From Fictibacillus arsenicus (GTDB lineage Bacteria > Bacillota > Bacilli > Bacillales > Fictibacillaceae), in contig NZ_CP016761.1 in assembly GCF_001642935.1 (NCBI RefSeq), positions 2,914,001-2,978,000 of the forward strand: 64,000 nt of DNA, read 5' to 3'. Both the position numbers and the translations under genes were made by a program. The notes under the pieces were generated by a model that did not search any database, had not been told where the DNA came from, and was given only the letters and a program-made list of their open reading frames with translations. Below, piece by piece: positions 26,795-45,338 of the stretch. Position 1 is the stretch's first letter; each line of letters begins with the position of its first letter.

Positions 26795-26800
26795 AATAAT

Positions 26801-30374: not shown

Positions 30375-30452
30375 TAATCATTCACAATCCTGCTAATTTT
30401 CTTGAGGAAGGGTGATATATTTATGCAGCAATAGCACCCGATTGCGGAATAA
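30375..30452 (-). repeat. cassette repeat copy A
   Basis: The left box ATTCACAATCCTGC and right box GCACCCGATTGCGGAATAA form an imperfect inverted repeat. The right end abuts the stop codon of the HIT gene (30453). The central hairpin is degenerate here. Confidence 0.65.
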
Positions 30453-30782
30453 CTATCTCAGTGGTTTTCCTGAGACAATATGCCAATGCAAATGTTTTGA
30501 GTCTTGATAGGACCCTAAATTTGTAATAACTCTACAAGCTCCATTTTCTTTTGTAACCTTAGTTGCAACCTTTTTAATTACACCCAGTAGTTCTAATAAT
30601 AATTCGGTATCACTGTCCTCTAATGCAATTAAAGAAGAGATATGTTTCTTTGGAATTGCAACAATATGTACCGGATAAAAAGGTCTTGTATGATTATAGG
30701 CTAATACATTTTCTGTCTCTAACACTTTATTTACGTGGGTTTTACCACTTAAAACCTCATCACAATAAAAGTCTTCAGTCAT
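30453..30782 (-). CDS. HIT-family nucleotide hydrolase/transferase
   Basis: This 109-residue histidine-triad protein hydrolyses or transfers nucleotides from adenosine phosphoramidate-type or dinucleoside polyphosphate substrates. The N-terminal Cys/His zinc residues of Hint proteins are not obvious. FYPVHIVAIPKKHISSL (about 35-51) is the conserved strand-turn, and HLHWHIVSG (about 96-104) is the histidine triad. It overlaps the upstream hydrolase gene by ATGA, so the two form one cassette-like operon. Repeat copy A begins right at its stop. It is a complete gene of normal length. Confidence 0.85.
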   Translation of the reverse strand: MTEDFYCDEVLSGKTHVNKVLETENVLAYNHTRPFYPVHIVAIPKKHISSLIALEDSDTELLLELLGVIKKVATKVTKENGACRVITNLGSYQDSKHLHWHIVSGKPLR

Positions 30783-31669
30783 AATTCCTCTCCTCGATCT
30801 AAAAACTCTTGGACTGTCCCATTAAACTTTTCTGGTTCCTCTAATTCAGGGAAATGTGCACTGTTATTAAACAGTATGATTTCACTACTCCTTAATTCTT
30901 TATGTATTAACGTTGAAATAGGTATACCTGTATTTCGGTCAAAAACACCCGTGATAATTATAGATTGGTGATTAATGTCTTTTAGACGCTCGAGTAGTGG
31001 GATTGCAACAGGATTTTTTTGTAATGCTTTTAACATGAGTCCCGTATTTTCTAAGTTACTTTCCTCCCACATTTTTCTATTCTTTTTTGATATGTCTTGA
31101 TTTTGAAACAATAATAAATCAACTGATTTACTATCTACCAATTCCCAAAACTTGTTGTATGTTTCGTCAATATTTAACCCTTTATTAAGGACATCTTGCA
31201 TTTGTCTATACATTTGGTGATCAACCACCGAACAAAAACCCGTAATCTGAACCATCTTATTTATTTCTGTATTTATAAGACTGGGTCCGGATAGAACGAT
31301 TTTATTTATTTCTTCTGAAGTTGCATGGGCAATCTCTAGAGCTAACTCTCCCCCAAAGGAATACCCCAGTAGATCTACTTTCTTTACATCTAACCACCTC
31401 AGTAAAGATTTAAAATCCTCAACCAACAAATCAATAGAGTAATTTGTATCATCTGAGGGTTTGCTAGTTCTACCGCATCCACGTTGCTCATAATAAATAA
31501 CTGTTCTACTATTTGAGAGTAAAGGACCTATTGTTCGTTCAAATACATAATGATTCCCACCTGGACCTCCGTGTAAAACCACTAAAGGAATTGTATTATT
31601 CTCACTTCCTGCTACCCTAATCCAATGGGTAATGCCATTTAATTTTGTTTTAAATTCTCCATCCCTCAA
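30779..31669 (-). CDS. alpha/beta hydrolase, proline iminopeptidase-like
   Basis: This 296-residue serine hydrolase has the proline iminopeptidase layout. The oxyanion motif is LHGGPGGNHYVF (about 33-44), the YEQRGCGRTSKP loop is at about 60-71, the nucleophile Ser is in LLGYSFGGELAL (about 99-110), the acid Asp in ITGVFDRNTG (about 239-248), and the His in NSAHFPELEEP (about 270-280). It would cleave N-terminal proline or small amide/ester substrates in the cytoplasm. The start is TTG at 31669 with AGGTG 7 nt upstream. It is coupled by ATGA overlap to the HIT gene. Exact specificity is unknown. Confidence 0.8.
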   Translation of the reverse strand: MRDGEFKTKLNGITHWIRVAGSENNTIPLVVLHGGPGGNHYVFERTIGPLLSNSRTVIYYEQRGCGRTSKPSDDTNYSIDLLVEDFKSLLRWLDVKKVDLLGYSFGGELALEIAHATSEEINKIVLSGPSLINTEINKMVQITGFCSVVDHQMYRQMQDVLNKGLNIDETYNKFWELVDSKSVDLLLFQNQDISKKNRKMWEESNLENTGLMLKALQKNPVAIPLLERLKDINHQSIIITGVFDRNTGIPISTLIHKELRSSEIILFNNSAHFPELEEPEKFNGTVQEFLDRGEEL

Positions 31670-31705
31670 TAACAGACACCTCGATTTTGATAAAGTTCCA
31701 AACCT

Positions 31706-31770
31706 TTATTAGTTCAATAAAAAAGAGCACATTCCTTTCTTAAGAAATGCACCCGATTGTTGAAGAAGAA
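31706..31770 (-). repeat. cassette repeat copy B
   Basis: AGTTCAATAAAAAAGAGCAC, the hairpin ATTCCTTTCTTAAGAAATGC and the box GCACCCGATTGTTGAAGAAG occur in order. On the minus strand the hairpin is followed by TTTTTT, so it also works as a terminator. It lacks the outer CTTATTCCACAATCC box of the full copies. Confidence 0.65.
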
Positions 31771-31853
31771 TTATTATGCTTTGAAAAATCAGTTTACAAC
31801 ATCAAAATATTAACGAATAATAATATTATTAGCTAACTATTGGGGATGGAAAA

Positions 31854-32153
31854 ATGAGTTCACTACTTGACTTAATGAGTTCGAAAAGTTTAGGAATATT
31901 TTGTTTTATAATTGCGTTAGTCTTATTATTCATTTCCTTTAACTATAAGGAATGGTACAGAAAGAACTTATTACTAAGTTTTAGCTTTTTTCAAATAAAC
32001 ATTGGAATTTTATCCATATTCGAAAATGAAACTTATTTGATTGGACTACATATAAGATTTTTTGAATACTTAGCAATAATCGGATTTTCATTGTTCCTTT
32101 TTAGTTTATCCCATGGGTTGTATGTAACTTTCAAACAGAGGCGTAGATTATGA
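31854..32153 (+). CDS. small membrane protein (99 aa)
   Basis: This 99-residue protein has three probable membrane helices (about 10-28, 38-57, 68-90) and a short basic C-terminus (KQRRRL). GGGGATGG lies just before the ATG. It is one of few plus-strand genes in the cassette region and may share a cassette with the convergent DUF5063 gene. I do not recognise the family. The function is unknown. Confidence 0.6.
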   Translation: MSSLLDLMSSKSLGIFCFIIALVLLFISFNYKEWYRKNLLLSFSFFQINIGILSIFENETYLIGLHIRFFEYLAIIGFSLFLFSLSHGLYVTFKQRRRL

Positions 32154-32238
32154 TTAAAAACTACATTATAAATAGTGTAATGTATACAAATTTTGTTCCC
32201 TTTTCAACTAACCTTTACTTAAATAAGAAAAGTGATTT

Positions 32239-32688
32239 TTAATTAAAATTCAATGAATGTAAGGCTCGCATTGCATTAATTGCGTGTCTACCCCAATGGA
32301 TTTCAAAGTTAAATTTCCAATACCAAGTTGCTTCTACTTGTTTGTCTCTTTGGTACAATAAAACCCCTTCTTTTAAGTCTTTATAAATGTCTAAGAGGTC
32401 GTCAGTTAAACTTCCACAAACAGGTTCTTCAAATGTGTACGGTTCGAAGACTACCCAATATGTATCGTTTCTTTTAAGTTTCAAATCTGGTAAATCAAAA
32501 TTCAAGTCAGATACTTCAGTGTGTTTAGGTTTAACTTCGGGAAGAGATATAGCCTGAACATATAGAGCTGAGACAGAAAAAAGAAGTTGATTTAATTTAT
32601 TAGTATCGTTATTGGTAGTATAATTTTCAACTAAGTCACAAAAGGATATTGCCGAACCTAAGAAAACTTGAACTTCTTTTAAGTCCAT
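32239..32688 (-). CDS. DUF5063 family protein
   Basis: This 149-residue helical protein has the DUF5063 features: VQVFLGSAISFCDLVENY at the N-terminus, then DTYWVVFEPYTFEEPVCGSL (about 75-94), DLLDIYKDLKEGV (about 97-109) and the C-terminal WYWKFNFEIHWGRHAINAMR (about 122-141). The family is found in Bacteroidota and Bacillota; its function is not established as far as I know. TAAGAGA precedes the ATG. Repeat copy C lies just upstream. Confidence 0.7.
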   Translation of the reverse strand: MDLKEVQVFLGSAISFCDLVENYTTNNDTNKLNQLLFSVSALYVQAISLPEVKPKHTEVSDLNFDLPDLKLKRNDTYWVVFEPYTFEEPVCGSLTDDLLDIYKDLKEGVLLYQRDKQVEATWYWKFNFEIHWGRHAINAMRALHSLNFN

Positions 32689-32722
32689 TTCTCTTACCTC
32701 CGAATCGTTTTTAACAAAAGAC

Positions 32723-32811
32723 TCTTACTCCACAATCTTGCTACGTTTGTTGAATAAGTTCTATAAAAAAGGCGTTAATCCCTCTTGGATCAACGCACCC
32801 GTTTGCTAAAT
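32723..32811 (-). repeat. cassette repeat copy C
   Basis: This is a full-form element. CTTACTCCACAATC pairs with TTTGTTGAATAAG nearby. TATAAAAAAG, the hairpin GGCGTTAATCC / GGATCAACGC and the box GCACCCGTTTGCTAAAT follow. It lies 48 bp past the stop of the effector-binding gene at 32859. Confidence 0.7.
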
Positions 32812-32858
32812 TTCAAAGTTCTATATTACTAATGAATAAAAGGTCAATAAAAAATCGT

Positions 32859-33341
32859 TTATGTGACTAATTGACTCTCTTTGCTTGTAACGTTATCGAT
32901 ACAACTATTTATCGGTATGTAAATCTCAACTTCTTCTCCTTCCTCAACCGGATGATACATCTCGATAAAATAAGATTCCTGTGTTGGGTGATATCCGTGT
33001 TCTTTAGACCATTTTTGTAAAGAAGTGTAAAGATCGGATACAACCGTCATACTCCCTCTCGTTGAAACAAATTCACCTGATATTTCTATATACTCCATGC
33101 CAGCTGGCACTTCATCCATCTTACCCTTCACTAGGACCCCAACATAATAATGTCCTTCTTTATGATCCTCACCTTTTTTCGGTTCGAAAAGCGAAACCTC
33201 TACTCCTAAGTGGTTCTTTATTTCATCAATTCTGCTCATGAATCCTTGTGCATTTATTGGCACCTCACTTGCCAAGTTGCTGTAAAGACCTTTGTTCTTC
33301 TTCCCCACTACTTGAAACACTTTGTTTATTCTTTTATTCAT
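32859..33341 (-). CDS. GyrI-like / AraC effector-binding domain protein
   Basis: This 160-residue stand-alone SOUL/GyrI-type small-molecule-binding domain has the alternating beta-alpha pattern: LASEVPINAQGFMSRIDEI, HYYVGVLVKG (about 65-74), VPAGMEYIEISGEFVSTRGS (about 79-98), LQKWSKEHGYHPTQ (about 108-121) and the conserved FIEMYHPVEEGEEVEIYIPI C-terminus. Such domains bind cationic or hydrophobic ligands, or hydrolyse cyclopropanoid toxins. It is the last gene of a minus-strand unit headed by an ECF sigma factor (36136). Confidence 0.75.
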   Translation of the reverse strand: MNKRINKVFQVVGKKNKGLYSNLASEVPINAQGFMSRIDEIKNHLGVEVSLFEPKKGEDHKEGHYYVGVLVKGKMDEVPAGMEYIEISGEFVSTRGSMTVVSDLYTSLQKWSKEHGYHPTQESYFIEMYHPVEEGEEVEIYIPINSCIDNVTSKESQLVT

Positions 33342-33399
33342 AATCTATTAACCACCTTTTTAAAAAATATATATAATACTCCATTTCATCTTGCATTAT

Positions 33400-33825
33400 T
33401 TATGGTGTAATCATGTGTAACTTTTTATATTTCGGGCTTAACTCACTCCATACATCAAACAAATTTCCACTGGGATCTTGAAATACAAAGTTCCTTCCAG
33501 CATGACCTCTGTTTTCTATTTTTCCAACATTAATTTCTTGTTCAATAAATTCATGATGCATTGTCTCTAACGTTTCAATCCCATTCACTTCAAACGTTAA
33601 CGAGAAACGTTCTTCTCCGTTGAAATCCTTAAAGTTAGAGGTTTGTCCCTGGTGCGACTTTACTAAAAAAATGCTTTGATCTGCAAGGTTAAGAATCGCC
33701 TTATCTTCATCTAGGTAACTTAATTCTGCACCTAGTTTATTAACATACCAATCTTTGGAGCTATGAATGTCTGTAACTGGAATATAGGTTGTACCCACTC
33801 TTTGTAATTTTTCTTTCATTTTCAT
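33400..33825 (-). CDS. VOC-family (glyoxalase/bleomycin-resistance-like) protein
   Basis: This 141-residue protein has two beta-alpha-beta-beta-beta modules of the vicinal oxygen chelate fold: TTYIPVTDIHSSKDWYVNKLG (about 12-32), a mid region with RFSLTFEVNG (about 72-81) and the terminal GRNFVFQDPSGNLFDVWSE (about 109-127), including the metal-site Glu/Asp near the C-terminus. Family members isomerise, cleave or sequester small toxins such as antibiotics. It lies between two effector-binding proteins in the sigma-factor operon. Confidence 0.8.
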   Translation of the reverse strand: MKMKEKLQRVGTTYIPVTDIHSSKDWYVNKLGAELSYLDEDKAILNLADQSIFLVKSHQGQTSNFKDFNGEERFSLTFEVNGIETLETMHHEFIEQEINVGKIENRGHAGRNFVFQDPSGNLFDVWSELSPKYKKLHMITP

Positions 33826-33846
33826 ATACCCTCTTTGTAATTAGAA

Positions 33847-34323
33847 TTATTTGATCGTATCTAGCAGTTCCACCTTAAGGTTATTAGAGTCTTCCCAAGA
33901 CTGAAAAATCTCAATGTGCCATGTATTTTTTAGCCTTTTATGGCCGTTTTCCTCAGCCCATTGATGCAGTTCATCATATGCTTCAAATATTTGTTGATTT
34001 GATCCTTGAAAGTTTGCTGCAGCATACCTTTGACGTGGAATTGTTATCATTACCATATCTTTTGGGATATCTTCAAACTTCTCCACTTCCACACAGACCC
34101 AATACCCGTCTTCCTCTTCCTTTTTTGAATCAACGAAAAAAGCTCCAAATTGAATATCTTTGTTCAACAGGTGTTTAATCTCATTCAACCGATTGCTCAA
34201 GGATTTTACCGCTTTAGGAATCTCGTTTTTGTATTCGTCGTTTCCACACAACACTCTAAATCCAACAAGCTTGAGTTCTCTAACTTCTTTTACAGATAAG
34301 TTCTGTATCAACTGAACCTTCAT
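33847..34323 (-). CDS. GyrI-like / effector-binding domain protein
   Basis: This 158-residue single-domain protein is a paralogue in fold of the one at 32859. It has LKLVGFRVLCGNDEYKNEIPK at the start, GYWVCVEVEKFEDIPKDMVM (about 73-92), IPRQRYAAANFQGSNQQI (about 94-111), LHQWAEENGHKRLK (about 118-131) and a final IEIFQSW strand. An AGGAGG ribosome binding site is present. It is predicted to bind a small ligand in the cytoplasm. It sits 18 bp downstream of the BtrH-like gene, clearly co-transcribed. Confidence 0.75.
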   Translation of the reverse strand: MKVQLIQNLSVKEVRELKLVGFRVLCGNDEYKNEIPKAVKSLSNRLNEIKHLLNKDIQFGAFFVDSKKEEEDGYWVCVEVEKFEDIPKDMVMITIPRQRYAAANFQGSNQQIFEAYDELHQWAEENGHKRLKNTWHIEIFQSWEDSNNLKVELLDTIK

Positions 34324-34340
34324 TTACTATTCCTCCTCAT

Positions 34341-35351
34341 TTAATTGACCCATTTCTCTGCATAATAGTTCTTCATAAAGTTATGTAGAGTCTCTAAACA
34401 CTTCACACCTTCTGTCTCAGCATCTTTTGCTTTGCTTATGAGGTTGACAGCAATACTTGCATTCTCTTCTTTTGATGGATCACCACCGTGTGGAAAAGGA
34501 AACAACTCACGAAGTTCAACAAGTGCATCGACGACTATAGCGTATTGTTTTAGTGCATCGGATGCTAACTTTCTGACACCTCGCTCTACTATGTTCGCCC
34601 CGTCCCATTTGATTGTAAGATCGTGTAAGTACTTCATTGCAAACTCCCTTGCATCAGATACCACAAGTGCATTAAACGCGTTTCCGTGCGGGTCGGCATT
34701 TCCTTTTTCCAACACATCAATCCATGCATCATACGCTTTTAATCCTATCTTGTACTTACCTTCTAAGACATGCTGCCACTCTCTGCCATGAGCATGATCT
34801 AAAATTGTATCTAGACTCATCCGAAGCATCTCATATTTAGAATGAGGAAGACTCTCGCCAATTGTCGTTGTATATAGAACACCGTTTACATCTGCAAAAT
34901 CTTCATAAGTTACTTCTCCGTCTTTTGAACAATCCTTCGCATAAAATACTTTTTTATCGTCGTCATACCCATAGATTAACCCGAACTCTGGTATGAACAT
35001 ATCGAATACAATAGCCGGTATCCCTCTATCCACAGATTCTTGAATTAACTCGATGGTTTCTTCTAATTTTTTCGGTTGCACCGGTGTTAGAGAGTCTGCG
35101 AGGTTGCTCGTAAAGCCTAGGTTACATAAGTTTTTTCGTAAGAGGTATCCTCCAGGTATTGCAGTCGGTCCGGCAACGTTGATTTCTTTTGGATCGATGT
35201 TAATGCGAAAAGCATGACCCGAGATTCCCATGACATCTACAAGATTCAGATGTTTCTTATCGGTGTATTTGATGGCTCCATGAAGCGCAGCGGCCGCTGA
35301 AGTTTTCGTTCTTAACCAACACTCTTCTTTGTTTTTATCCTTGCGTTCCAA
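34341..35351 (-). CDS. BtrH-like N-terminal domain protein
   Basis: This 336-residue protein carries features of the butirosin biosynthesis protein H N-terminal (papain-like fold) family: ECWLRTKTSAAAALHGAIKY (Cys about 11, early in the chain), GISGHAFRINIDP (about 43-55), IPAIVFDMFIPEFGLIYGYDD (about 112-132), FYAKDCS. A helical C-terminal half (about 175-336) follows. It may bind or transfer an acyl or peptide group. It immediately follows the sigma factor gene with an 11-bp gap. The true substrate is unknown. Its company with effector-binding and VOC proteins suggests a response to a small molecule. Confidence 0.6.
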   Translation of the reverse strand: MERKDKNKEECWLRTKTSAAAALHGAIKYTDKKHLNLVDVMGISGHAFRINIDPKEINVAGPTAIPGGYLLRKNLCNLGFTSNLADSLTPVQPKKLEETIELIQESVDRGIPAIVFDMFIPEFGLIYGYDDDKKVFYAKDCSKDGEVTYEDFADVNGVLYTTTIGESLPHSKYEMLRMSLDTILDHAHGREWQHVLEGKYKIGLKAYDAWIDVLEKGNADPHGNAFNALVVSDAREFAMKYLHDLTIKWDGANIVERGVRKLASDALKQYAIVVDALVELRELFPFPHGGDPSKEENASIAVNLISKAKDAETEGVKCLETLHNFMKNYYAEKWVN

Positions 35352-35362
35352 CGTTATTCCTC

Positions 35363-36136
35363 CTAAATATCCGGCTTCAACAAGACCTTTCGTTTACAAA
35401 CTCCTCGCTCTTCCTTTCTCTGAACGTACTGATGAATCGTGATACGAAGTCTTTCCTTTTGTACTTTTACCCTAGAGCGTGAGATGGTATTATACACATT
35501 TGCTTTGGTAGTATTAAAAAGCTTAGCAATTTCAAGTGGTGGAAGATCTTCAAAGAAGTATGCTTCAAAGAACGCTTTTTCACGTTTGGTCAAACACTTT
35601 AATAAGGTACAAATCCCCTCCACCACGCTTAACCGCATTAAATGTTCTTCAGGATTATCCTCTTGCGATCTTTTAGAAGCGGAAGAAGAAATAAAATATA
35701 AGATCTGGTCAATATCTCCCCAATCCACCATGGACGGCGAAAGCTGATTTTCTCTTCCTGCAGCTAATGAAGTTATTGAGCTTTCCATACGATAGCCGGC
35801 ACTACGTACACTCATGTAAGCTTGATTGCGCACAATCTGTTTAAGCCAAGGAGTAAACCTATTCGTGTCTATAAGTGTGCCAATCTTAATAAAAGCTCTG
35901 TATAACGCTTCTTGAACAATGTCTTCAGCTAAAAAGGTATCCTTAGTGACAGAAAATGCCCAACCATGAGCTTTTGCCCGATGCAACCTCACTAGTTCAT
36001 TGAAAGCTTCTTGATTCCCCTTTCTGGCCAGGTGGACCAACTTTTCTTTTTTCATCTCTTGAATCCTGGACTCGGATTCCTCATTATGCTTATTACTTAA
36101 GGCTTGCTCACTACCATCAGCGAGAATAACATTCAT
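35363..36136 (-). CDS. ECF-type sigma-70 family RNA polymerase sigma factor
   Basis: This 257-residue sigma factor has region 2 at about 30-100 (NQEAFNELVRLHRAKAHGWA, DIVQEALYRAFIKIG, FTPWLKQIVRNQAY) and region 4 at about 165-235 (LTKREKAFFEAYFFEDLPPLEIAKLFNTTKANVYNTISRSR). The N- and C-terminal extensions are longer than in a minimal ECF sigma. No anti-sigma gene is adjacent; the next gene is BtrH-like. It heads a five-gene unit with two effector-binding proteins and a VOC protein. A possible autoregulated promoter was not identified. Confidence 0.85.
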   Translation of the reverse strand: MNVILADGSEQALSNKHNEESESRIQEMKKEKLVHLARKGNQEAFNELVRLHRAKAHGWAFSVTKDTFLAEDIVQEALYRAFIKIGTLIDTNRFTPWLKQIVRNQAYMSVRSAGYRMESSITSLAAGRENQLSPSMVDWGDIDQILYFISSSASKRSQEDNPEEHLMRLSVVEGICTLLKCLTKREKAFFEAYFFEDLPPLEIAKLFNTTKANVYNTISRSRVKVQKERLRITIHQYVQRKEERGVCKRKVLLKPDI

Positions 36137-36352: not shown

Positions 36353-36404
36353 AGCAACAAAAAGAGTGCATTTCTTATTAAAGAAATGCACTCTTTTTGT
36401 TGAA
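36353..36404 (-). repeat. cassette repeat copy E (perfect 22-bp hairpin)
   Basis: A perfect 22-bp inverted repeat runs from CAACAAAAAGAG (36355) to CTCTTTTTGTTG (ends 36402) with loop ATTA. The right end reads GTTGAAT. The core matches the hairpins of copies B and I (GTGCATTTCTT / AAGAAATGCAC) but lacks the CCCGATTG box. A gene-tail-like frame and a TGAACAGTA / TACTGTTCA hairpin (36419-36442) lie between it and the next gene. Confidence 0.65.
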
Positions 36405-36501
36405 TATCGCTTATCTATTGAACAGTAAAATTGTACTGTTCAGCAAGTCCATCTATCATAGTCCCTGTGTAATTATTGATAAAAACTAATGTATGAATAC
36501 T

Positions 36502-36879
36502 TTACCAATGGGTTTGAAGCTTATTACCATTTGGGTCATAAAAGTTGAAATAAGCATGTCCTTTATCTTCTAGTATTTCCTCCACTTTAACACCATGATT
36601 AATTAGGTGTTGATGAAACTGAGATAACTCTGGACTGGTAAAGCCAATGCTAAAGGTAGGTTTATTATCAATTGTAAAATGTGCAAATGTTTCATCTTCA
36701 GTAGGGACTAAAATAATTAAAAAAGGTCCTTCATTAATTTTAAGAATTGCAAATGGATCATCCGTAATGGTTAATAATTCAAGCCCTAAAACATTTCCGT
36801 ACCATTGTGCAGATTTCTCTAAATCTCTAACCGGGATTCTAATATAATGTACTTGTTCAATGAATGATTTACTCATCAT
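36502..36879 (-). CDS. VOC-family (glyoxalase-like) protein
   Basis: This 125-residue VOC protein has HYIRIPVRDLEKSAQWYGNVLGLEL (about 11-35), FAILKINEGPFLIILVP (about 43-59), HFTIDNKPTFSIGFTSPE and the C-terminal GHAYFNFYDPNGNKLQTHW with the metal-binding pattern. It is a probable small-molecule modifying or sequestering enzyme. AGGAGAGG lies 3-8 nt upstream of ATGATG. It ends a three-gene unit with an AraC-type regulator and an effector-binding protein, so it is likely induced by that regulator. Confidence 0.8.
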   Translation of the reverse strand: MMSKSFIEQVHYIRIPVRDLEKSAQWYGNVLGLELLTITDDPFAILKINEGPFLIILVPTEDETFAHFTIDNKPTFSIGFTSPELSQFHQHLINHGVKVEEILEDKGHAYFNFYDPNGNKLQTHW

Positions 36880-36890
36880 TTACCTCTCCT

Positions 36891-37517
36891 TTATTTAATG
36901 GGATATAAAATATCAAAATCAAATGCCTGAATTTCACGAGCTGGCACTTCAAAAGGATTAAATGTGTCAAGACGATTCGGTTCAAGAGAAAAAGCACCGG
37001 TATCATGATTAATCTGATATCCTTCTTCTTTAATCCATTCACTTAAATAATGATATCTACGGTCCATCTCTGCTTTACTGAAACAACAGCATTCAATTTT
37101 CGCATACCTTCTTTCAGGTATGGTGAATCCTCTACACTCCTCAGTTGTATGAGTAATGTCACTCACTTTAACTCCTACCCAAAGGTCAATTGTTCCGTCT
37201 GATTTCACCATATTTCCCTGATCATAAAAGACAATTCCTTCATTTTCTTCGATTGCCATTGAATCATAAGAAGATAATAAATGGCTTAGTTTTTTCCAGC
37301 CTTTACGGACTTCCTGCCCTGCCTCAAAGTTTTCCATACGACCGTTTACTTTTATAGCTATCATTTTAAACTGTTCAATAATAACTGTTTTAACTTCTAG
37401 TTTTCTGCTTTTTTGATGCTTCTCTCGTTGCCCTAATAGAACTTGCAACGATTGTGGAGTTCGTTGAGGATGATAATCTTCTAAAGGAAACAGGTTTCTT
37501 ACAGCTCTGTCACCCAT
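36891..37517 (-). CDS. GyrI-like effector-binding protein
   Basis: This 208-residue protein has a variable N-terminal segment (1-45, basic, KHQKSRKLEVK) followed by a GyrI-like domain (about 45-208). Its features are MIAIKVNGRMENFEAG, WVGVKVSDITHTTEECRGF (about 125-143), IPERRYAKIECCCFSK (about 145-160), LSEWIKEEGYQIN (about 169-181) and FDILYPIK at the end. The ATG overlaps the AraC-family gene by 8 nt, and AGGGG lies 8 nt before it. The same fold occurs within the upstream AraC protein, suggesting a shared ligand. Confidence 0.7.
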   Translation of the reverse strand: MGDRAVRNLFPLEDYHPQRTPQSLQVLLGQREKHQKSRKLEVKTVIIEQFKMIAIKVNGRMENFEAGQEVRKGWKKLSHLLSSYDSMAIEENEGIVFYDQGNMVKSDGTIDLWVGVKVSDITHTTEECRGFTIPERRYAKIECCCFSKAEMDRRYHYLSEWIKEEGYQINHDTGAFSLEPNRLDTFNPFEVPAREIQAFDFDILYPIK

Positions 37518-38862
37518 ACAATTTGCCCCTTTCTATAATAGGAATATAGATTCGCACACTCATGTTATTGTTAGCTGAACTTACTTGATATTGAGCAAAC
37601 CACTGTTTAGAATCATCTAGAATATATTTTTCTCCACTTACGATCCACCGGTGCATAATTTCTAAAATACCCATAAGTGTTCCGTATGCCCTAGTTTCAA
37701 TAACAGCAAATAATCCACCACCCAATACCTTTTGATTAATACTTTGAGTGTTCATATCTTCATGATTTAGATAATTGGTAATACCATATTCACCCCAATG
37801 CTCTAAGTCATTTTCAGAATCATAGTTGTATGACAAGTAAAGCTTAGCACTGAAATAGTCTATTGATGGCGTAGATCTTAGCCATTCAGATAAAGTTTTA
37901 TCCGCCTTCACTAGGCAACCATGTCCGTAACTCCTACAATATGACACCCTAAAAGATTCTGTTTCCTCTACTGTAATCAGCTCGGGTCTTATCTGGCGGT
38001 CTAATGGCAAATATAGTTTCATTCGAACAAGTTTTTCATTAAAGGTAATATACTCTTCCAAATACGTATGTTTGCCTTCTTTAAACGAACTTTTAGGCAA
38101 CCACTCTGAATACATTTGATTCCATAATGATAGAATACTGGCATCACTAGTTGATGGTGTTACCCCCACTGCAAACATGCCACCCTGAATAGTTTTAATA
38201 GGCATTCCGGCTATTGAATAAACAATAGGATCTTCAATAGATATCATGACTTCATATTCATATAATTGAGATTTCTTATCCAAAGCTTCATCGTATCCTA
38301 TATTTCGTCCGAAAATCCTTATTTTTTTTTCATTTAAATCAGATGCTTGAACTAGGTATTGAACTACCGTAAGCGCTTCCTTTTCAATTCCATCTAAACG
38401 GTCTGCTCTATGTATATAACTTAATACCACCATGTCTTTTACTTGAATGACCTTTATGTCTGGGTATCTATCGAATAATTCACGTCCCTCTAAGTAATTA
38501 ATCTTTTCATATAAATCAATTCGGTCAAAACAAAAAAACATACCCGAATCTTTATATACTTTTGGAGTAATTCCAACTACTTTCTTAAATGTCTTTGTAA
38601 AAGATGCCTGTGATTCAAAACCAACATGAATAGCAATATCCAAGATTGTACGATTAGAGTATTTTAGATGGTCTGAAGCGATGCTAATTCTTCTTTTACG
38701 CATGTAGTCTTTTACTGGATAACCAGTAAGAGAGTAAAACATGCGGTATAAATGTGGGAGTGACATGGAGGCTATTTTTGCAACATCTTCTAACTCTATT
38801 TTCTCTTCAATATTTTCTTCTAAAAAATCTATTGCTGCTTGAACACTAACTAAGTAATTCAT
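37510..38862 (-). CDS. AraC-family regulator with effector-binding domains
   Basis: This 450-residue transcription regulator has an N-terminal AraC/XylS double HTH (about 8-105: LEDVAKIASMSLPHLYRMFYSLTGYPVKDYMRKRR and later TILDIAIHVGFESQASFTKTF). The long C-terminal part holds one or two GyrI/Rob-like ligand-binding modules (about 150-290 and 295-450). DNA binding at the N-terminus with ligand binding at the C-terminus matches the SoxS/Rob-like type common in Bacillaceae. It is first in a unit with an effector-binding and a VOC gene. GGTGGTGAATA precedes the ATG. Confidence 0.8.
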   Translation of the reverse strand: MNYLVSVQAAIDFLEENIEEKIELEDVAKIASMSLPHLYRMFYSLTGYPVKDYMRKRRISIASDHLKYSNRTILDIAIHVGFESQASFTKTFKKVVGITPKVYKDSGMFFCFDRIDLYEKINYLEGRELFDRYPDIKVIQVKDMVVLSYIHRADRLDGIEKEALTVVQYLVQASDLNEKKIRIFGRNIGYDEALDKKSQLYEYEVMISIEDPIVYSIAGMPIKTIQGGMFAVGVTPSTSDASILSLWNQMYSEWLPKSSFKEGKHTYLEEYITFNEKLVRMKLYLPLDRQIRPELITVEETESFRVSYCRSYGHGCLVKADKTLSEWLRSTPSIDYFSAKLYLSYNYDSENDLEHWGEYGITNYLNHEDMNTQSINQKVLGGGLFAVIETRAYGTLMGILEIMHRWIVSGEKYILDDSKQWFAQYQVSSANNNMSVRIYIPIIERGKLYG

Positions 38863-39044: not shown

Positions 39045-39105
39045 CCTTCACAAACAAAAAAAGGGTGAAATATCACACCAATATCGCACCGGATCGTAAT
39101 ATAAG
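39045..39105 (-). repeat. decayed cassette repeat copy (G0)
   Basis: ACAAACAAAAAAAGGGTG, a weak hairpin and CGCACCGGATCGTAATATAAG resemble the right half of full copies (GCACCCGATTG...AATAAG) with several substitutions. It lies just 3' of the 51-aa gene. Confidence 0.4.
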
Positions 39106-39340: not shown

Positions 39341-39431
39341 CTTATTCAACCATCCTGCACGTTTGTTCAATACGTTCAATAAAAAGTGCAGATCTCCTTC
39401 TTAGAGAAATGCACCCGATTGTTGAAGAACG
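39341..39431 (-). repeat. cassette repeat copy G (full form)
   Basis: CTTATTCAACCATCCTGCACG is followed by TTTGTTCAATACG, then TTCAATAAAAAGTGCAGAT and GAGAAATGCACCCGATTG, ending GTTGAAGAACG. All three boxes and the central hairpin are present. Confidence 0.7.
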
Positions 39432-39436
39432 AATCA

Positions 39437-39720: not shown

Positions 39721-39767
39721 GTAGCATCAGGAAAATGTGGATTTACAACGATAAGGAAATTCCAAAT

Positions 39768-39817: not shown

Positions 39818-39823
39818 GTTACT

Positions 39824-40456
39824 TCATTTATTAATTGAATTCATTAACTGGAAGAAGTATTCAGGTTTATGAGTCTTATTTAGGTTATACCATGAATGTA
39901 ATGCATCTGGTGTGAATACATCTATTTTTTTTAGTACCTCCATGGCAAATTCCAGAGGAGCTATTCCTGATGCGGTGACTAAATTCGCATCAGATACGGC
40001 AGATTCCAACTCATAAAACTTTTCTCCTTTGTAGTTAGGACATACCATTTTGGTATATTCCAAGTTATTACTTGTGTGCTTTCTAGTATCTAAGTATCCC
40101 CTATTCGCGAGGGCCTCAATTGCGCCACAAATTGCAGCAACAATGGTGCCAAGCTTTAAAGCCTGGCCGATTCTTTCCAAGATAGGCTGATGAATGTCTT
40201 CACTCCAAGTAGTTCCTCCCGGTAAAATTAAAAGATCTTTATTTTCAAAAGTACAATCATCAAGGGACATATCTGGTTTTATGCTCAGCCCTCCCATAGT
40301 CGTAATCATTTCTTTATTAGCTCCTACTGTCATTACTTTTAAAGGTGCTAAATCTTTTTTGAAATACCTTCCTGAGTTTAGTTCAGCTATTAAATATCCA
40401 TATTCCCAGTCTGACATTGTATTAAATACATATAAAAAAACTTTTTTTGTTTGCAT
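39824..40456 (-). CDS. DJ-1/PfpI family protein
   Basis: This 210-residue protein has the DJ-1/PfpI glutamine-amidotransferase-like fold. It opens KKVFLYVFNTMSDWEYGYLIAEL, has DLLILPGGTTWSEDIHQP (about 84-101) and the nucleophile elbow with Cys in VAAICGAIEALANRGYLD (about 119-136), and a late SGIAPLEFAMEVL segment. Members act as chaperones, deglycase-like enzymes or small hydrolases. The start ATG 40456 follows GGAG at 9 nt. The adjacent WYL regulator (40531) is on the same strand but separated by a terminator. Confidence 0.8.
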   Translation of the reverse strand: MQTKKVFLYVFNTMSDWEYGYLIAELNSGRYFKKDLAPLKVMTVGANKEMITTMGGLSIKPDMSLDDCTFENKDLLILPGGTTWSEDIHQPILERIGQALKLGTIVAAICGAIEALANRGYLDTRKHTSNNLEYTKMVCPNYKGEKFYELESAVSDANLVTASGIAPLEFAMEVLKKIDVFTPDALHSWYNLNKTHKPEYFFQLMNSINK

Positions 40457-40500
40457 CCAATAACACTCCAATCACAATTGATATAGCCAGTATAATAAAA

Positions 40501-40527
40501 CTTCCCTGACAGTTAGCGTCAGGGAAG
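40501..40527 (-). terminator. terminator of the WYL-regulator gene
   Basis: A perfect 10-bp stem CTTCCCTGAC / GTCAGGGAAG is followed on the minus strand by TTTTATTATA. It separates the regulator from the downstream DJ-1 gene. Confidence 0.8.
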
Positions 40528-40530
40528 TGA

Positions 40531-41493
40531 TCATACTTCATGAAATTTTATTAATTCCGACAGAACTTCAACAAGTCTTTTCTTCAGACTGATCGGCTCA
40601 ATCACTTTAATAGATTGATTGTACGGTAAAAGTAAATAAGGTACATATGTATGAATCACATCTTTTTCAAGAAGAAAAACGGCTTGATTTGAAGTCCGTT
40701 CTTGTAAATAATGTCCTATAAACCAATGTTGGCAAATATCATCCAATACACTTTTGTCCCCAGAAATAACCAAAGCAATAATCCCTTCCTTATCTTCTAT
40801 AGCTGGAAGAAGATTTCTTGTAAAAAAGTCACGTGCTGAAAAATCTTCCGGCCGGTTAAACGTATTTTCGGTCAGCATTAGACTTTCAATTCGATCTACT
40901 CTAAAACTACGGATATCATTTCTAAGATGACAAAATCCAATCACATACCACTTATTATTCCAATAGATCATTCTGTACGGATCGACCAATCTATCATTTA
41001 ATTGCTTTTCTCCACTTTTATGGTAAACAATTTTTACTGAGTACCCGTCAGCTACGGCCTGCTCCAACTCCTTCAAAAAAGGTTCCATAGAAAGTGAACG
41101 TAATCGACTGATTACTTCAAGACTCGTTAAATGTTGGTTTACCTTTGTTTCCTGTTCTTGATTTGAGTAGTTACTTAGTTTTGAAATGGCCCTATTTAGT
41201 GCCTCACCACCATAATATCCGGCTTCTTCTGCAAAAACAGCAGCGTGAAATAATGAAGTTTGCTCCTCAAAATCAAAAAATAGAGGAGCCTCAATAAAAT
41301 TGTCCAATAAAGTGTATCCACCGTTATGTCCTGGTTCTGAAATTATAGGTACGCCACTTTTTGAAATTGTATCAATATAACGATACACAGTCCTTATATT
41401 CATCTCTAACTTTTCTGAAATTTGTTTTGCAGTAATTTTTTCACCTGAACGAAGCATCCATAGAATTGCTAACATATTGTCAATTTTAGGCAT
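40531..41493 (-). CDS. YafY-type transcriptional regulator (HTH + WYL domain)
   Basis: This 320-residue regulator has an N-terminal HTH_11 (about 5-60: MLAILWMLRSGEKITAKQISEKLEMNIRTVYRYI) and a WYL domain (about 135-215: RLVDPYRMIYWNNKWYVIGFCHLRNDIRSFRVDRI) followed by a WCX tail (to 320). WYL domains bind nucleic-acid or nucleotide-type ligands, and such regulators often control DNA-damage or defence genes. GAGGTGG lies before the ATG. The downstream DJ-1 gene is a plausible target. Confidence 0.85.
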   Translation of the reverse strand: MPKIDNMLAILWMLRSGEKITAKQISEKLEMNIRTVYRYIDTISKSGVPIISEPGHNGGYTLLDNFIEAPLFFDFEEQTSLFHAAVFAEEAGYYGGEALNRAISKLSNYSNQEQETKVNQHLTSLEVISRLRSLSMEPFLKELEQAVADGYSVKIVYHKSGEKQLNDRLVDPYRMIYWNNKWYVIGFCHLRNDIRSFRVDRIESLMLTENTFNRPEDFSARDFFTRNLLPAIEDKEGIIALVISGDKSVLDDICQHWFIGHYLQERTSNQAVFLLEKDVIHTYVPYLLLPYNQSIKVIEPISLKKRLVEVLSELIKFHEV

Positions 41494-41584
41494 ATAATTC
41501 CACCTCTATATCCCTATACATATATATAATTAATAACCAACTTACAATACCAATTATTTCAAATATTATAATATTGAGCAATCC

Positions 41585-41663
41585 CCTTATTCCATTAAAT
41601 GGCCAGTTTCATAAAAAAGAGTACATTTCTTATTACAGAAATGCACCCGATTGCGGAATAAGG
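41585..41663 (-). repeat. cassette repeat copy I
   Basis: Ends CCTTATTCC and GGAATAAGG form a perfect terminal inverted repeat. The inside reads ATAAAAAAGAGTACATTTCT, a short loop, then AGAAATGCACCCGATTGC. It lies 20 bp 3' of the minus-strand gene at 41684, and acts as a terminator with TTTTTT on the minus strand. Confidence 0.7.
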
Positions 41664-41683
41664 AAGTTAATACTAAGATTCAT

Positions 41684-42007
41684 TTAAAAATGTATATTGA
41701 TCATTTTTATTTCTGGTAACTTAATTTTGCATTCGTCTGCAGTATCCGATACTAGGATTTCATTTACTGGATCTTCAAATGTGATCCAATTTTCAGCAAT
41801 GGGTAATAATGCTTGAATTATATCATTTTCATTTATTTCTGGTTGCAGATCCATCTCAACTTCAATGACATAAATACCTTCAATCTTCCAGTAGGGTTTT
41901 ATAACTTGTTTAGAAATTCTTCTTAGTTTAATATGACCGAGAACCTTTCCTGCAATTTGCATAACAAAATCTTCACGTTTTGCTTCTACATACATCCTTA
42001 AAAACAT
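41684..42007 (-). CDS. hypothetical protein (107 aa)
   Basis: This 107-residue soluble protein of alternating strands and helices is not recognised. GYVxxx-type motifs are absent. IEGIYVIEVEMDLQPEINENDII (about 43-65) and NWITFEDPVNEILVSD are the most regular parts. AGGAGATATAA precedes the ATG at 42007. It sits alone between repeat copies I and J, a classic single-gene cassette arrangement. Confidence 0.6.
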   Translation of the reverse strand: MFLRMYVEAKREDFVMQIAGKVLGHIKLRRISKQVIKPYWKIEGIYVIEVEMDLQPEINENDIIQALLPIAENWITFEDPVNEILVSDTADECKIKLPEIKMINIHF

Positions 42008-42018
42008 TTATATCTCCT

Positions 42019-42083
42019 GTTCTTTAGCTTTATAAAAAAACTGCTTACATAACTCTGGAAAAGCACCCGATTGTGGAGCAAAG
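42019..42083 (-). repeat. cassette repeat copy J
   Basis: TTATAAAAAAACTGCTTAC and GCACCCGATTGTGGAGCAAAG are the recognisable parts. The hairpin arms (CTGCTT / AAAAGCAC) are degenerate. It is located 36 bp 3' of the DUF4937-like gene at 42119. Confidence 0.6.
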
Positions 42084-42118
42084 TTAAGTTAGTTAATTAC
42101 TAATCCAAAATATGCATA

Positions 42119-42769
42119 TCATATCTTAAGCTGTGGAATAACACTCCAAGTCTCTTCCAGTTTAAACTGTTCACCTTCTATGATTAAAGCATCCATTTTA
42201 GCATTGGATCTTCTTAATAATTCGGGAAGGATATTATCTACATAACTTTGATGGAAGCCCTCATTTTTCCATCCAGATAAAACAAGAAAACTATTGTCTT
42301 CTTTTATTGAACTTGCAAACATACCTCCTTGCATCCCTTCAGCGTTACTCATTCCTATGTTCCACACATTCCTTTGCATTTCCTCAAAGTGTTTCACTTT
42401 TTCATCTTTCACCTGTACAGTAGCAATTCGCATAAATTCAGTTTCACTTAGCAGTTGATTTATAATGTATTTGTTACTAGGAAAAGCGATTTTTTCAATA
42501 AATAATTGCACGTTTATTGAATAGTAGGTTTTACCTTGTCCCGAGTTAATGAAAATAGGATCGTGTACTTCTTTCATAAAATAATTATAGTGCTGCTCAC
42601 TTACCCAAAAAGAGTAAATACAAGCTTTTAATTTATCAGTTTGGCTCCATCCTCCAAACTGACCTAAAAACCCTTTCACCCGATATAAAACTTCCCATTT
42701 TTGTTGATCTGTATAAAATTTGTCCTTATGTTCTTCTTTGACTTTACAACTAATACTTTTAATAATCAT
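42119..42769 (-). CDS. DUF4937/YdbC-like protein
   Basis: This 216-residue protein has two dimeric alpha-beta-barrel-like halves. SISCKVKEEHKDKFYTDQQKWE and FWVSEQHYNYFMKEVHDPIF lie in the first half. FMRIATVQVKDEKVKHFEEMQ and LSGWKNEGFHQSYVDNILPEL lie in the second. This matches the DUF4937 (YdbC) style as I recall it. The biochemical role is unknown; related antibiotic-biosynthesis-monooxygenase folds bind small organics. The start overlaps the GNAT gene by ATGA, so the two form one unit. Confidence 0.65.
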   Translation of the reverse strand: MIIKSISCKVKEEHKDKFYTDQQKWEVLYRVKGFLGQFGGWSQTDKLKACIYSFWVSEQHYNYFMKEVHDPIFINSGQGKTYYSINVQLFIEKIAFPSNKYIINQLLSETEFMRIATVQVKDEKVKHFEEMQRNVWNIGMSNAEGMQGGMFASSIKEDNSFLVLSGWKNEGFHQSYVDNILPELLRRSNAKMDALIIEGEQFKLEETWSVIPQLKI

Positions 42770-43287
42770 ATGTTGTTATCCAGTTCCATTCCCATAATCA
42801 CATAAGATTTCCCTGCGGCTCCGTTTGGTAAAAAAGGTTCTTTAATAACCTTCCAATTCAATGTTCTGTACAATGATTTAGCAGGGATATTATCTTGTTG
42901 TGTAGTTAGAATTGCTGTCTTGTTAGCGACATCTTCTAATAGCAAGTTAACTAAACGTCTCCCTATGCCTTTCTTTCTCTGAAAAGGATGTATAGCTAAT
43001 TCCACAAATTCAAAACAGTTTTCGAGCCAATAAGTCACTTGTTCTGAAGTTAATGTATTTTCAAGCAATTCTCTGTAATACTGTCCTTTTAGAGAGTTAT
43101 AACCATATGCAAAACCAATAATTTGTTCTTCATCATTCATTGCTATAATTGCTTTAAAACCATTATATGTTGAATGCTTCTCTAGTCGATTAATAATTAC
43201 ATTTTCATCTTCATTCCAAACACTACTATAAAGAGCTGCTATTCTTTTTCTCATTTTTTCGGAATTATCAAAGTTTATGATTTTCAC
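42766..43287 (-). CDS. GNAT N-acetyltransferase
   Basis: This 173-residue acetyl-CoA-dependent acetyltransferase has AIIAMNDEEQIIGFAYGYNSL (about 48-68), the core FVELAIHPFQRKKGIGRRLVNLLLEDV (motif A with the R/Q-x-x-G-x-G/A CoA loop, about 96-122) and AILTTQQDNIPAKSLYRTLNWKVI (motif B, about 126-149). GTG start at 43287 follows GAGGGGG at about 8 nt. The substrate is unknown. It is coupled to the DUF4937-like gene downstream. Confidence 0.85.
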   Translation of the reverse strand: MKIINFDNSEKMRKRIAALYSSVWNEDENVIINRLEKHSTYNGFKAIIAMNDEEQIIGFAYGYNSLKGQYYRELLENTLTSEQVTYWLENCFEFVELAIHPFQRKKGIGRRLVNLLLEDVANKTAILTTQQDNIPAKSLYRTLNWKVIKEPFLPNGAAGKSYVIMGMELDNNI

Positions 43288-43336
43288 AATAAATCCCCCT
43301 CAATCAGAAGTCCAACTCTAAACTATAATAGATTAA

Positions 43337-43428
43337 CTTATTCCACAATCCTGCACGTTTGTTTAATAAGTTCCACAAAAAAAGGCGTTAATCCTTTTTA
43401 GATCAACGCACCTGATTGTTAAATAAGG
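43337..43428 (-). repeat. cassette repeat copy K (best full form)
   Basis: Starting CTTATTCCACAATCCTGC, it carries TTTGTTTAATAAG (inverted partner of the first box), TTCCACAAAAAAAGG, the hairpin GGCGTTAATCC / GATCAACGC, and ends CTGATTGTTAAATAAGG. It shows three CTTATT...ACAA-type boxes around one hairpin in 92 bp. Confidence 0.75.
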
Positions 43429-43531
43429 AGAAAATACACATTAACCTTAGATCAATTGTAAAAGCTTGTTGAACAAGGTTGGTGTATTAATAACACTCCA
43501 TTCTTTTTACTTGTAACACTCTTCTACACCT

Positions 43532-45136
43532 TCAAAAGAAATATTGCCATAAATCTATAATGGGACTGAATAAACTCATTATTTTATTCTGATTTTTATC
43601 ACTTAACTGATAAAACAATGAAAAACCTGCAAAAATAGTTGCTGCTAATGATAATACAAACGTTATAATTGAAAGCCAAAAAGACCTTCTTCTTAGAGAA
43701 TCGTTTGTTTTAATTTCGAGTAATTTAACGCTATCATCTATTATTTTTGCAAAGTTTTGAGAGTGTTCAAATGTTTTATCTACTATATATTTAGTGTTAT
43801 CAACAATCATTTCTGATGCACTTGTACGATTATAACTATAACTAGGGTTTGATGGTTCAAATTCAGCTAATTTCTTTATTTGAGATTTTATTCTATTAAA
43901 ATAGTCATCACCTATTTCATTTTTAAATCTTTTGAGAATTTGTAAGTTCCTCTCCAATTCATATCTTATATTTATTAATTTTTGATACTTTGGTCTTTCC
44001 TTTTTAATTGATGAAAAAGTTTTATTCTGTTGTATTGCAATTTTCTTACTGGTATCTACAGCATACTCCCTCATAACAATAATTGGAAGAAGTAACTCCG
44101 CAAATTCCTGTAACATATCAACAATCTGGAAGTCAAGTGAATGATACATTGGTTCTCGTTTAATTATTGAGTTACAAGTAACCTTCAATGAACTATCAAT
44201 CAAATAAGGTTCCCTTCCTTCGGTAAATAATTGCCAGTAACCATCTTTAGATATATCGCTGAAAGGACTATAACTATCCATTCCAATAGCATTCCAGAAA
44301 GAACTTCTTTTCTCATTCTCAACATTTTTAAAAACACAAGAAGTTTGATTCAACTTGTAGACTTCGATCCCTGGAGGAATCAGTTTGTTTTTTGTGAAAT
44401 ACAAGGGAAAGAACTTACTAATTTCTTTCAATGTCCTCCATTTCAGTTCTACTATTAAATCTTCTAACATTTGGTTTTTCACAATATCATATGATAATCT
44501 TTTTCCGCCCCAAAATTTTAAAAAACTCTTCAATTTAAAATTAAATGAATGCCCAACTTTTATATCGCTCTTAATTAACTTGTTATATTCATTAGTAAAC
44601 TCATCAGAAGGAGTTATTACAAACTGTAAAATAATTGAGGATGAAGATAAGTGTGTCCCTTGAATTTGTATGTATTTCACAAAATCCGAAACACTATCTT
44701 CCTTAGTCAGATCTAAATAACCGAAATTACTCCAACGACCTCCATGAATGCTCTGTTTCACCTCATTACAAAATTCATCAACTTGCTCAGCTGTTCCATA
44801 TTGCAAACCAGCTGGATAACTTTTAATCAGTTTTTTAAGCCCTTTGTTCAATTTATTCACGTTCTCAATTGGTATATATTCAGCCACGTAAACAGATAAT
44901 AAATCCAAATGAATGTCCCTTGGGATTTCAGATGTACTGTTTTTTTCTCTTTCCCAACCTTTAACATTAATTATTGCTGATTCTAATACTCTAGGAACGA
45001 ATTTTGACTTTACTTTCCAATTCTCATCCAAAGGAATCTTTTTAATGTAAGGAACTATAAAATCAGTAATTTTCCTATCGAATTTTTCTTTTAAACTCAA
45101 TCTATTACGACTGTATGGATTCTTTATTTCTACCAT
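43532..45136 (-). CDS. unknown protein with C-terminal membrane hairpin (534 aa)
   Basis: I do not recognise the family. The 534-residue protein has a large mixed alpha/beta soluble region (1-470), including coiled-coil-like EKRSSFWNAIGMDSYSPF and IKKERPKYQKLINIRYELERN. A C-terminal hydrophobic segment (about 488-520, LSIITFVLSLAATIFAGFSLFY) precedes a short tail. Start ATG 45136 follows TTGGGGG. It sits alone between repeats K and L. A large soluble domain with a C-terminal membrane anchor is a layout seen among abortive-infection effectors, but there is no motif to prove that. Confidence 0.6.
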   Translation of the reverse strand: MVEIKNPYSRNRLSLKEKFDRKITDFIVPYIKKIPLDENWKVKSKFVPRVLESAIINVKGWEREKNSTSEIPRDIHLDLLSVYVAEYIPIENVNKLNKGLKKLIKSYPAGLQYGTAEQVDEFCNEVKQSIHGGRWSNFGYLDLTKEDSVSDFVKYIQIQGTHLSSSSIILQFVITPSDEFTNEYNKLIKSDIKVGHSFNFKLKSFLKFWGGKRLSYDIVKNQMLEDLIVELKWRTLKEISKFFPLYFTKNKLIPPGIEVYKLNQTSCVFKNVENEKRSSFWNAIGMDSYSPFSDISKDGYWQLFTEGREPYLIDSSLKVTCNSIIKREPMYHSLDFQIVDMLQEFAELLLPIIVMREYAVDTSKKIAIQQNKTFSSIKKERPKYQKLINIRYELERNLQILKRFKNEIGDDYFNRIKSQIKKLAEFEPSNPSYSYNRTSASEMIVDNTKYIVDKTFEHSQNFAKIIDDSVKLLEIKTNDSLRRRSFWLSIITFVLSLAATIFAGFSLFYQLSDKNQNKIMSLFSPIIDLWQYFF

Positions 45137-45302
45137 TTTTACCCCCAAGATCTTTATCAAATTCTTTCAGATATGTGCTACAATTTGAATTCAATACAAA
45201 TTCTTCTTAAGTATTTATAATAATATGATTTCATTATTTCAAATCCAAATAATTCCTACAAGAATAAATAATAATTTTAATAATTAAAAGAAAAATTGTT
45301 TT
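45137..45302. other. AT-rich upstream region
   Basis: There is no gene. Very AT-rich sequence lies upstream of the 534-aa gene, with no clear operator. Confidence 0.4.
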
Positions 45303-45338
45303 CTTATTCCACAATCTGGCCCGATTGTTGAATAAAAG
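45303..45338 (-). repeat. cassette repeat copy L (minimal 36-bp palindrome)
   Basis: Only the outer boxes are present: CTTATTCCACAATC, a 6-bp centre, and CGATTGTTGAATAAAAG, with no terminator hairpin. The shape is what a recombination of the outer boxes would leave. It is the last copy and lies 200 bp 3' of the sugar operon. Confidence 0.65.

Follow-up and report, generated by a model that had tools for sequence, protein, structure and literature searches.

Between 30.4 and 45.3 kb of the window, as we call the whole 64,000-nucleotide stretch of Fictibacillus arsenicus DNA analysed here (contig NZ_CP016761.1, positions 2,914,001 to 2,978,000), small accessory genes follow one another on the minus strand and are divided into units of one or a few genes by short repeats. 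The cargo consists of HIT, hydrolase, DUF5063, Cass2/GyrI-like, VOC, extracytoplasmic function (ECF) sigma, WYL, DJ-1 and GNAT proteins, together with unknowns. A first-pass annotation of this DNA had marked ten repeats as one family lying in a single orientation, and this held up: related elements were found at all ten places, in gene sense on the minus strand of the window. Strict rules recovered nine sites (one of type B, six of type A and two of type C, as defined below), and a relaxed scan brought the number to 14 by adding five degenerate or partner sites (Table 1). As set out below, we consider the region, with a probability of roughly 0.85, to be a mobile gene-cassette array driven by site-specific recombination, with a XerA-like tyrosine recombinase as the likely enzyme.

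Structure of the sites and their cassettes

Site statistics were obtained from 50 stretches (about 1 Mb) of 17 genomes; these stretches were picked around hits of the pattern, so that the counts are not genome-wide rates. Each site consists of two inverted 14-bp arms (CTTATTCMACAAWC / GWTTGTKGAATAAG) flanking a centre of 6 bp, sometimes 7 bp. When both arms were searched with up to three mismatches each, a spacing of 6 bp was found 125 times and one of 7 bp 35 times (1 and 2 in the reversed-sequence control), and any other spacing from 2 to 12 bp occurred in at most three cases. Three centres are dominant, namely GGGTGC (type A), GGGCCA (type B) and GNGCAG or GTAGCAG (type C). With the orientation of each array taken from the majority of its cores, type A sites pointed with the array 341 times and never against it, and type C sites 69 times versus once (reversed sequence, 1). 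A looser core gave 381 versus 27, and the near-palindromic type B was called on both strands (48 and 38). The two arms of a site are alike, unlike the differing XerC and XerD half-sites of dif modules.

Each repeat had been thought at first pass to contain a Rho-independent terminator, which is true of many copies and not of every one: a hairpin followed by a T-run was present at 189 of the 341 A sites, compared with a mean of 7.3 in shuffled sequences and 10 of 341 at random positions. Because of its position downstream of the crossover, the terminator would travel with the downstream gene and not with the gene that it terminates. The 92-bp long form of the repeat is composite: an A site is followed by a terminator hairpin, and this by a C site. 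A partner site of type B or C lies 34–90 bp further on at 37 of the 341 A sites.

Successive A sites are separated by a median of 837 bp (259 units, after 35 A-to-A gaps longer than 3.5 kb were left out). Of these units, 206 have their longest open reading frame (ORF) in the direction of the array, 44 have it in the opposite direction and 9 lack one. A Pfam scan covered 120 of the 183 available cassette ORFs, which taken together matched 112 families. The commonest were GNAT (six), followed by NUDIX, alpha/beta hydrolase and DinB (four each), and PADLOC matched nine families among the cassette ORFs, mostly by one ORF apiece.

Distribution of the sites

A scan of the window's genome, a single contig of 4.06 Mb, for the 20-bp core at three mismatches or fewer found it 13 times and its reversed control not at all. 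Seven cores lie at 1.160–1.167 Mb (all plus), five in the window (all minus) and one at 3.26 Mb. The cores thus form two arrays, each in one orientation, and the genome-wide scatter by which the first-pass annotation would have recognised a simple dispersed repeat is not seen. The second array (L022, G000:C1:1150001-1170000) holds ten A sites and one C site, all plus, amid small genes. Two co-oriented B-like sites without an A site between them lie 2.3 kb apart elsewhere in this genome (L023, about 6375 and 8667; G000:C1:3062376 and 3064668).

A search with the core pattern across relatives detected it at up to one mismatch in 26 of 34 genomes of the family (reversed pattern, 1 of 34), the richest being a genome of the same genus with 101 cores (G003). 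Within the order, the pattern occurs in 174 of 397 genomes, which belong to 78 of 135 genera; the reversed pattern appears in about 10 genomes.

Breakpoints of homology are enriched at the sites

Comparison of the array stretches with each other gave 277 homologous blocks with 484 internal ends. In the block-end test, 26 minus-strand blocks, blocks shorter than 200 bp and ends less than 150 bp away from the border of a stretch were left out. Ninety of the 484 ends fell from −30 to +60 of a core in both copies, while rotated cores gave a mean of 0.93 and a maximum of 5. In either copy, 192 ends were at a core, as against 40.5 for rotated cores. Blocks bounded by sites at both ends in both copies numbered 13 of 277, and those bounded at one end 57 of 277.

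The position of the break within a site was read from the two arms, with blocks overlapping the recombinase gene left out. For A-A pairs homologous on the right (n = 24), the right arms agreed at 11.6 of 14 positions (random 8.2) and the left arms at 9.5 (random 10.0). For those homologous on the left (n = 35), the left arms agreed at 12.2 and the right arms at 8.2 positions (random 10.0 and 8.2). The break therefore falls inside the centre, and both profiles and sequences indicate that the left and right arms of a site stem from different neighbours. All 82 classified junction pairs had the same centre type in both copies and none was mixed: 24 A-A and 5 C-C in one set, and 35 A-A, 14 B-B and 4 C-C in the other, where centres ending in CAG that had been called B were assigned to C and the 14 B-B pairs represent one orthologous locus among the matches listed. 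Since the centre travels with one side or the other, type-keeping is tested by one of the two sets.

Exchange between species is suggested by eight species pairs in which the best site-ended block was 89.9–99.1% identical, compared with 80.6–85.5% for Xer-gene loci; in the top pair the values were 99.1% over 1.8 kb and 85.5%. Only pairs differing by more than 8 points were counted, and the block end at a site was checked in one copy. Around 80 named loci of the recombinase described below, mostly of other genera and four of Fictibacillus, 9 of 270 block ends lay at a site in both copies (rotated cores, mean 0.39 and maximum 3). With breaks at sites beyond chance, located inside the centre and keeping its type, we conclude from these sequence comparisons that genes lying between sites have been moved as cassettes through site-specific recombination. 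Junctions at base level thus support the first-pass reading as a cassette array as well as the mobility of the cassettes, which was offered there as inference.

Type B is the first site in 15 of the 44 clusters that contain three or more A sites, where 4.5 would be expected. The upstream DNA of B is common to six genomes and, over 0.6 kb, to a seventh (G012), and the sequence diverges directly after B in the genomes with this shared DNA, an arrangement that resembles a docking site. In the three of these genomes whose ORFs were examined, the gene before B encodes a 399-residue protein with weak, below-cut-off matches to HtrA/DegP-type models, which we take to be MinJ-like. A different gene precedes the B site of the window, named from its sequence and presumably encoding a LacI-type regulator.

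A XerA-like recombinase is linked to the sites

Inside the arrays of three genomes (G006, G009 and G022, the last of another genus in the grouping used and named Fictibacillus sp. by NCBI) lies a gene for a 280-residue tyrosine recombinase, 93–97% identical among them; in a fourth, G002, it is cut short. The recombinases were found inside arrays or at an array tail, not at B. The active-site residues, whose roles we presume, are invariant across 15 aligned relatives. The best NCBIfam match is XerA (NF040815), a near miss with a score of 214.2 for a cut-off of 220, and the scores against XerC (199, cut-off 335), XerD (195, cut-off 330) and the integron integrase IntI (TIGR02249; 87, cut-off 265) are also below their cut-offs. 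The closest solved-structure match by sequence is 4a8e, and the XerC/XerD-type proteins of Fictibacillus are 29–33% identical to the recombinase.

At E values up to 1e-60, matches were found in 86 of 397 genomes of the order (mostly 47–96% identical, four at 39–40%) and in 8 of 398 genomes of a phylum sample, five of the eight at 41–44% identity. Eight plasmid records carry the recombinase, phage records gave no match at E up to 1e-50, and viral contigs contain relatives, the best of 61% identity. On a plasmid filed as Arthrobacter citreus NEB 577 (L269), a copy of 62.6% identity lies at the end of a run of small genes, a Bacillales-type array with ten sites of their own centre, TGGCAG; the species label seems doubtful. 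In eight genomes of one genus, g24 (G129, G157, G183, G207, G298, G318, G357 and G394), the recombinase is 78–82% identical and no core pattern was found, perhaps reflecting a different site sequence or a different use. Four tandem genes for Xer-like recombinases, 29–35% identical to the array recombinase, lie at G004:C1:2808255-2811575.

Sites are concentrated around this gene. At least one site was present at 78 of the 80 named loci, with 3.5–4.7 sites per 10 kb across three identity bands and a total of 441 sites versus 15 in the reversed control. Within 300 bp of the named copies the density was 15.4 per 10 kb upstream and 9.0 downstream, compared with 0.15 inside the gene and 3.1–3.2 beyond 3 kb. 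By comparison, 28 Fictibacillus xer loci had 0.20 sites per 10 kb (2 sites, control 2) and 21 viral homologue loci (46–61% identity) had 0.31 (6 sites, control 4); a lower viral group, split by rank and including two loci at 50–56%, had 11 sites versus 12 in its control, L291 being left out of the viral loci. Four viral homologues (L271, L272, L276 and L288; 51–59%) have a site-like sequence 170–760 bp upstream, in an attP-like placement, which may be due to chance given the similar control counts. In the order as a whole, the core was present in 57 of 86 genomes with the recombinase and in 117 of 311 without it (p = 2.6e-6, kinship ignored). We regard the 280-residue XerA-like recombinase as the likely enzyme acting on the sites. 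In the window's genome no match beyond the Xer level was found, so the window array looks orphaned, comparable to clusters of integron cassettes without an integrase.

Features of the window array

The features of the array are listed in Table 1 from its head to its tail. Inside unit 8, a 99-residue ORF (31854-32153, plus strand) opposes the array orientation. Just past the array tail, four tyrosine recombinase genes stand in a row (23354-28120, minus strand; 382, 322, 358 and 439 residues), three of them packed closely like a recombinase trio. They were considered as the array enzyme and set aside: their products are 20–33% identical to the array recombinase and to Xer proteins, and no sites lie among them.

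Table 1 Features of the cassette array, with positions in the window
Feature	Position	Strand	Basis
Type B site, centre GGGCCA, array head	45303..45336	-	
Cassette 1: 542-aa protein without Pfam or NCBIfam match at E 0.001	43532..45160	-	
Type A site, centre AGGTGC	43394..43427	-	
Remainder of terminator-like hairpin and T-run separating the A and C sites	43371..43393	-	sequence; class statistic
Type C site, centre GTGCAG	43337..43370	-	
Cassette 2: GNAT acetyltransferase (42766-43287) and DUF4937/ABM protein (42119-42769)	42119..43287	-	
Type A site, centre GGGTGC, then T-run	42049..42082	-	
Cassette 3: 107-aa protein without family match	41684..42007	-	
Type A site, centre GGGTGC	41629..41662	-	
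Degenerate partner site, centre TGGCCA	41586..41619	-	relaxed scan
Cassette 4: WYL regulator (40531-41493) and DJ-1/PfpI protein (39824-40471)	39824..41493	-	
Type A site, centre GGGTGC, then T-run	39397..39430	-	
Type C site, centre GTGCAG	39341..39374	-	
Degenerate type A site, centre CGGTGC	39072..39105	-	relaxed scan
Cassette 6: AraC-Cass2 regulator, Cass2/GyrI-like protein, VOC protein	36502..38862	-	
Degenerate type A site, 7-bp centre AGAGTGC; overlaps perfect terminator palindrome 36355-36402	36374..36408	-	
Unit 7: ECF sigma factor, 336-aa unknown, two GyrI-like/Cass2 proteins, VOC protein	32859..36136	-	
Type A site, centre GGGTGC, decayed arms	32781..32814	-	relaxed scan
Type C site, 7-bp centre GTAGCAA	32724..32758	-	relaxed scan
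Cassette 8: DUF5063 protein	32239..32688	-	
Type A site, centre GGGTGC, then T-run	31735..31768	-	
Cassette 9: alpha/beta hydrolase and HIT protein	30453..31669	-	
Type A site, centre GGGTGC, last of the array	30420..30453	-	

Alternative explanations

Several observations weigh against a cassette array served by the linked recombinase. Most block ends (394 of 484) lie away from a core in at least one copy, and the junction pairs share sequences, some of them within one genome, and are not independent. Among 12 candidate gaps, no clean case of a single A site with and without a cassette was found, and the one gap that fitted presence and absence of a cassette was at B sites, with flanks 72–87% alike. 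No core pattern occurs in 29 of the 86 genomes bearing the recombinase, and a looser half-site scan discriminated less well between the two kinds of loci, with 11 hits in 106 kb of xer-type loci (reversed control, 6) beside 36 in 110 kb of recombinase loci (control, 1). Only 2 of 18 Fictibacillus genomes carry an intact recombinase, at 95–96% identity, with one copy cut short and one relative of 53% in further genomes, and the site-richest genome, G003, has only Xer-level matches. With so few intact copies, and none in G003, either the arrays outlive their enzyme or another enzyme acts too.

The rarity of the linked enzyme would also agree with the possibility that the host XerC/XerD act on the sites, as on the dif modules of Acinetobacter, the linked recombinase being a passenger. 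Two Xer-type proteins of 300–309 residues, taken as XerD and XerC, are present in 14 of 14 genomes examined, the centre has 6 bp as in dif, and the site arm matches the XerD half of relatives' dif at 7 of 11 positions (about 0.03 for a random AT-rich word). However, the two arms are alike, with only 4 of 11 matches to the XerC half, and the sites are concentrated at the linked recombinase and not at the xer loci, although Xer proteins act in trans and need no such linkage. We consider this explanation unlikely, although XerC/XerD of the host may contribute. A B. subtilis-like dif pattern found no match in the window's genome and matched 12 of 34 family genomes.

Genes could likewise be shuffled if copies of the repeat recombined by ordinary homology, for instance following natural transformation, as same-type sites are alike over 20–34 bp and block ends at repeats would be expected as well. 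The breakpoints, however, cluster in the centre with the arm of one side at background level, the spacing is kept, a recombinase is linked, and 34 bp with mismatches are short for RecA. We give this explanation little credence.

The first pass likened the array to an integron. As a true integron it would be a CALIN (cluster of attC sites lacking integron-integrases), whose divergent attC sites an integron integrase would recombine in folded single-stranded form. The single orientation, the one to few genes per unit and the varied cargo including Cass2 proteins fit this proposal, and the composite of A site, terminator and C site can be drawn like an attC, its outer and inner arms paired around an unpaired centre. 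Nevertheless, none of the 34 family genomes has a protein past the TIGR02249 cut-off, where only Xer-type partial matches were found, and the likely array enzyme stays far below it. Partner sites are present at only the minority of A sites given above, and junctions keep their centre type. In 37 composites, the outer arms did not co-vary (9.92 pairs versus 9.91 when permuted) and the inner arms co-varied weakly (44 of 2000 permutations reached the value), so that attC-type folding found little support in the permutation test. The agreement with GTTRRRY/RYYYAAC, which the first pass had read as the integron pattern, is a likeness of letters that are presumably in part common to Xer half-sites, and the crossover falls in the 6-bp centre and not between the G and TT of an attC box. 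A true integron is thus very improbable here. Barely credible, finally, is a dispersed family of terminator-like repeats or miniature inverted-repeat transposable elements, such as occur in Bacillus genomes, that inserts behind accessory genes without moving them: the frequent hairpins at A sites would suit it, but the cores sit in arrays, unscattered, and an insertion would leave flanks from one locus, whereas the halves of the sites come from different loci.

Discussion

We propose that each site is a Xer-type core of a 14-bp arm, a centre of 6 bp (sometimes 7) and an inverted 14-bp arm, at which a tyrosine recombinase would cut at the borders of the centre and exchange strands between two sites of the same centre type. 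A cassette then comprises the right half of a site, the gene or genes that follow and the left half of the site after them. Since the sites are direct repeats, recombination between neighbours would excise a circle of one cassette and one site, and the reverse reaction would insert such a putative circle elsewhere. As the right half is built into a terminator hairpin in many cassettes, an inserted cassette would block transcription from upstream, and terminators may in this way insulate the cassettes. The recombinase itself is found in or beside arrays across Bacillales.

Like this system, integrons and CALIN have small accessory-gene cassettes lined up in one direction in long arrays, with a tyrosine-recombinase site bounding each cassette; arrays without an enzyme and exchange between species are further points in common, and tandem cassettes in one orientation that move as units were also found here. 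In contrast, no IntI was detected in the 34 family genomes, sites with two 14-bp arms, a 6-bp centre and junctions that keep the centre type stand in for attC, co-variation of a fold is not clear, the terminator stands at the cassette head, and the recombinase lies inside the array or at its tail. The terminators at cassette heads also argue against promoterless cassettes read from a common promoter. By the features tested, the system is integron-like in its working, as far as that can be judged from DNA, and not an integron. According to the IntegronFinder 2.0 paper (PMC9024848), integrons are only occasional in Firmicutes, a single complete integron being reported in their genera along with a few CALIN, and a review (PMC8618304) counts Firmicutes among the integron-bearing phyla.

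The dif modules of Acinetobacter plasmids, bounded by pdif sites for XerC/XerD, share the short Xer-type sites, the 6-bp spacer, the small bounded modules and a role of like spacers (PMC13141974). The same paper describes half-sites that differ, modules that alternate in inverted orientation and XerC/XerD as held to act, and regards dif modules as unique to Acinetobacter; by contrast, the present sites have two like arms and form long arrays of direct repeats, to which a separate recombinase is linked. XerA-type recombinases (NF040815) are the best family of the array recombinase, yet its score remains under their cut-off. Among the matches listed from the open full-text literature (titles and beginnings of abstracts), no description of such a system was found, and 13–14-base words of the core led to one mouse paper among the matches listed, taken as chance.

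We think it probable that, next to integrons and dif modules, these arrays form a third and independent class of systems that capture gene cassettes. It would be Bacillales-wide, with its own XerA-like recombinase travelling as a cassette, terminator-headed self-insulating cassettes, several site types made incompatible by their centres and a favoured docking site in the chromosome, and would trade hundreds of accessory genes between species. If this is true, such a system would serve a group in which integrons are regarded as nearly absent, and some CALIN reported in Firmicutes might be arrays of this kind. Mobile genes would become predictable from sequence, a second evolved solution could be compared with integrons, and the recombinase with its several site types may serve as a genetic tool. 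The exchange of small accessory genes among these soil bacteria would be explained by an integron-like system, built from other parts, that is present in many Bacillales.

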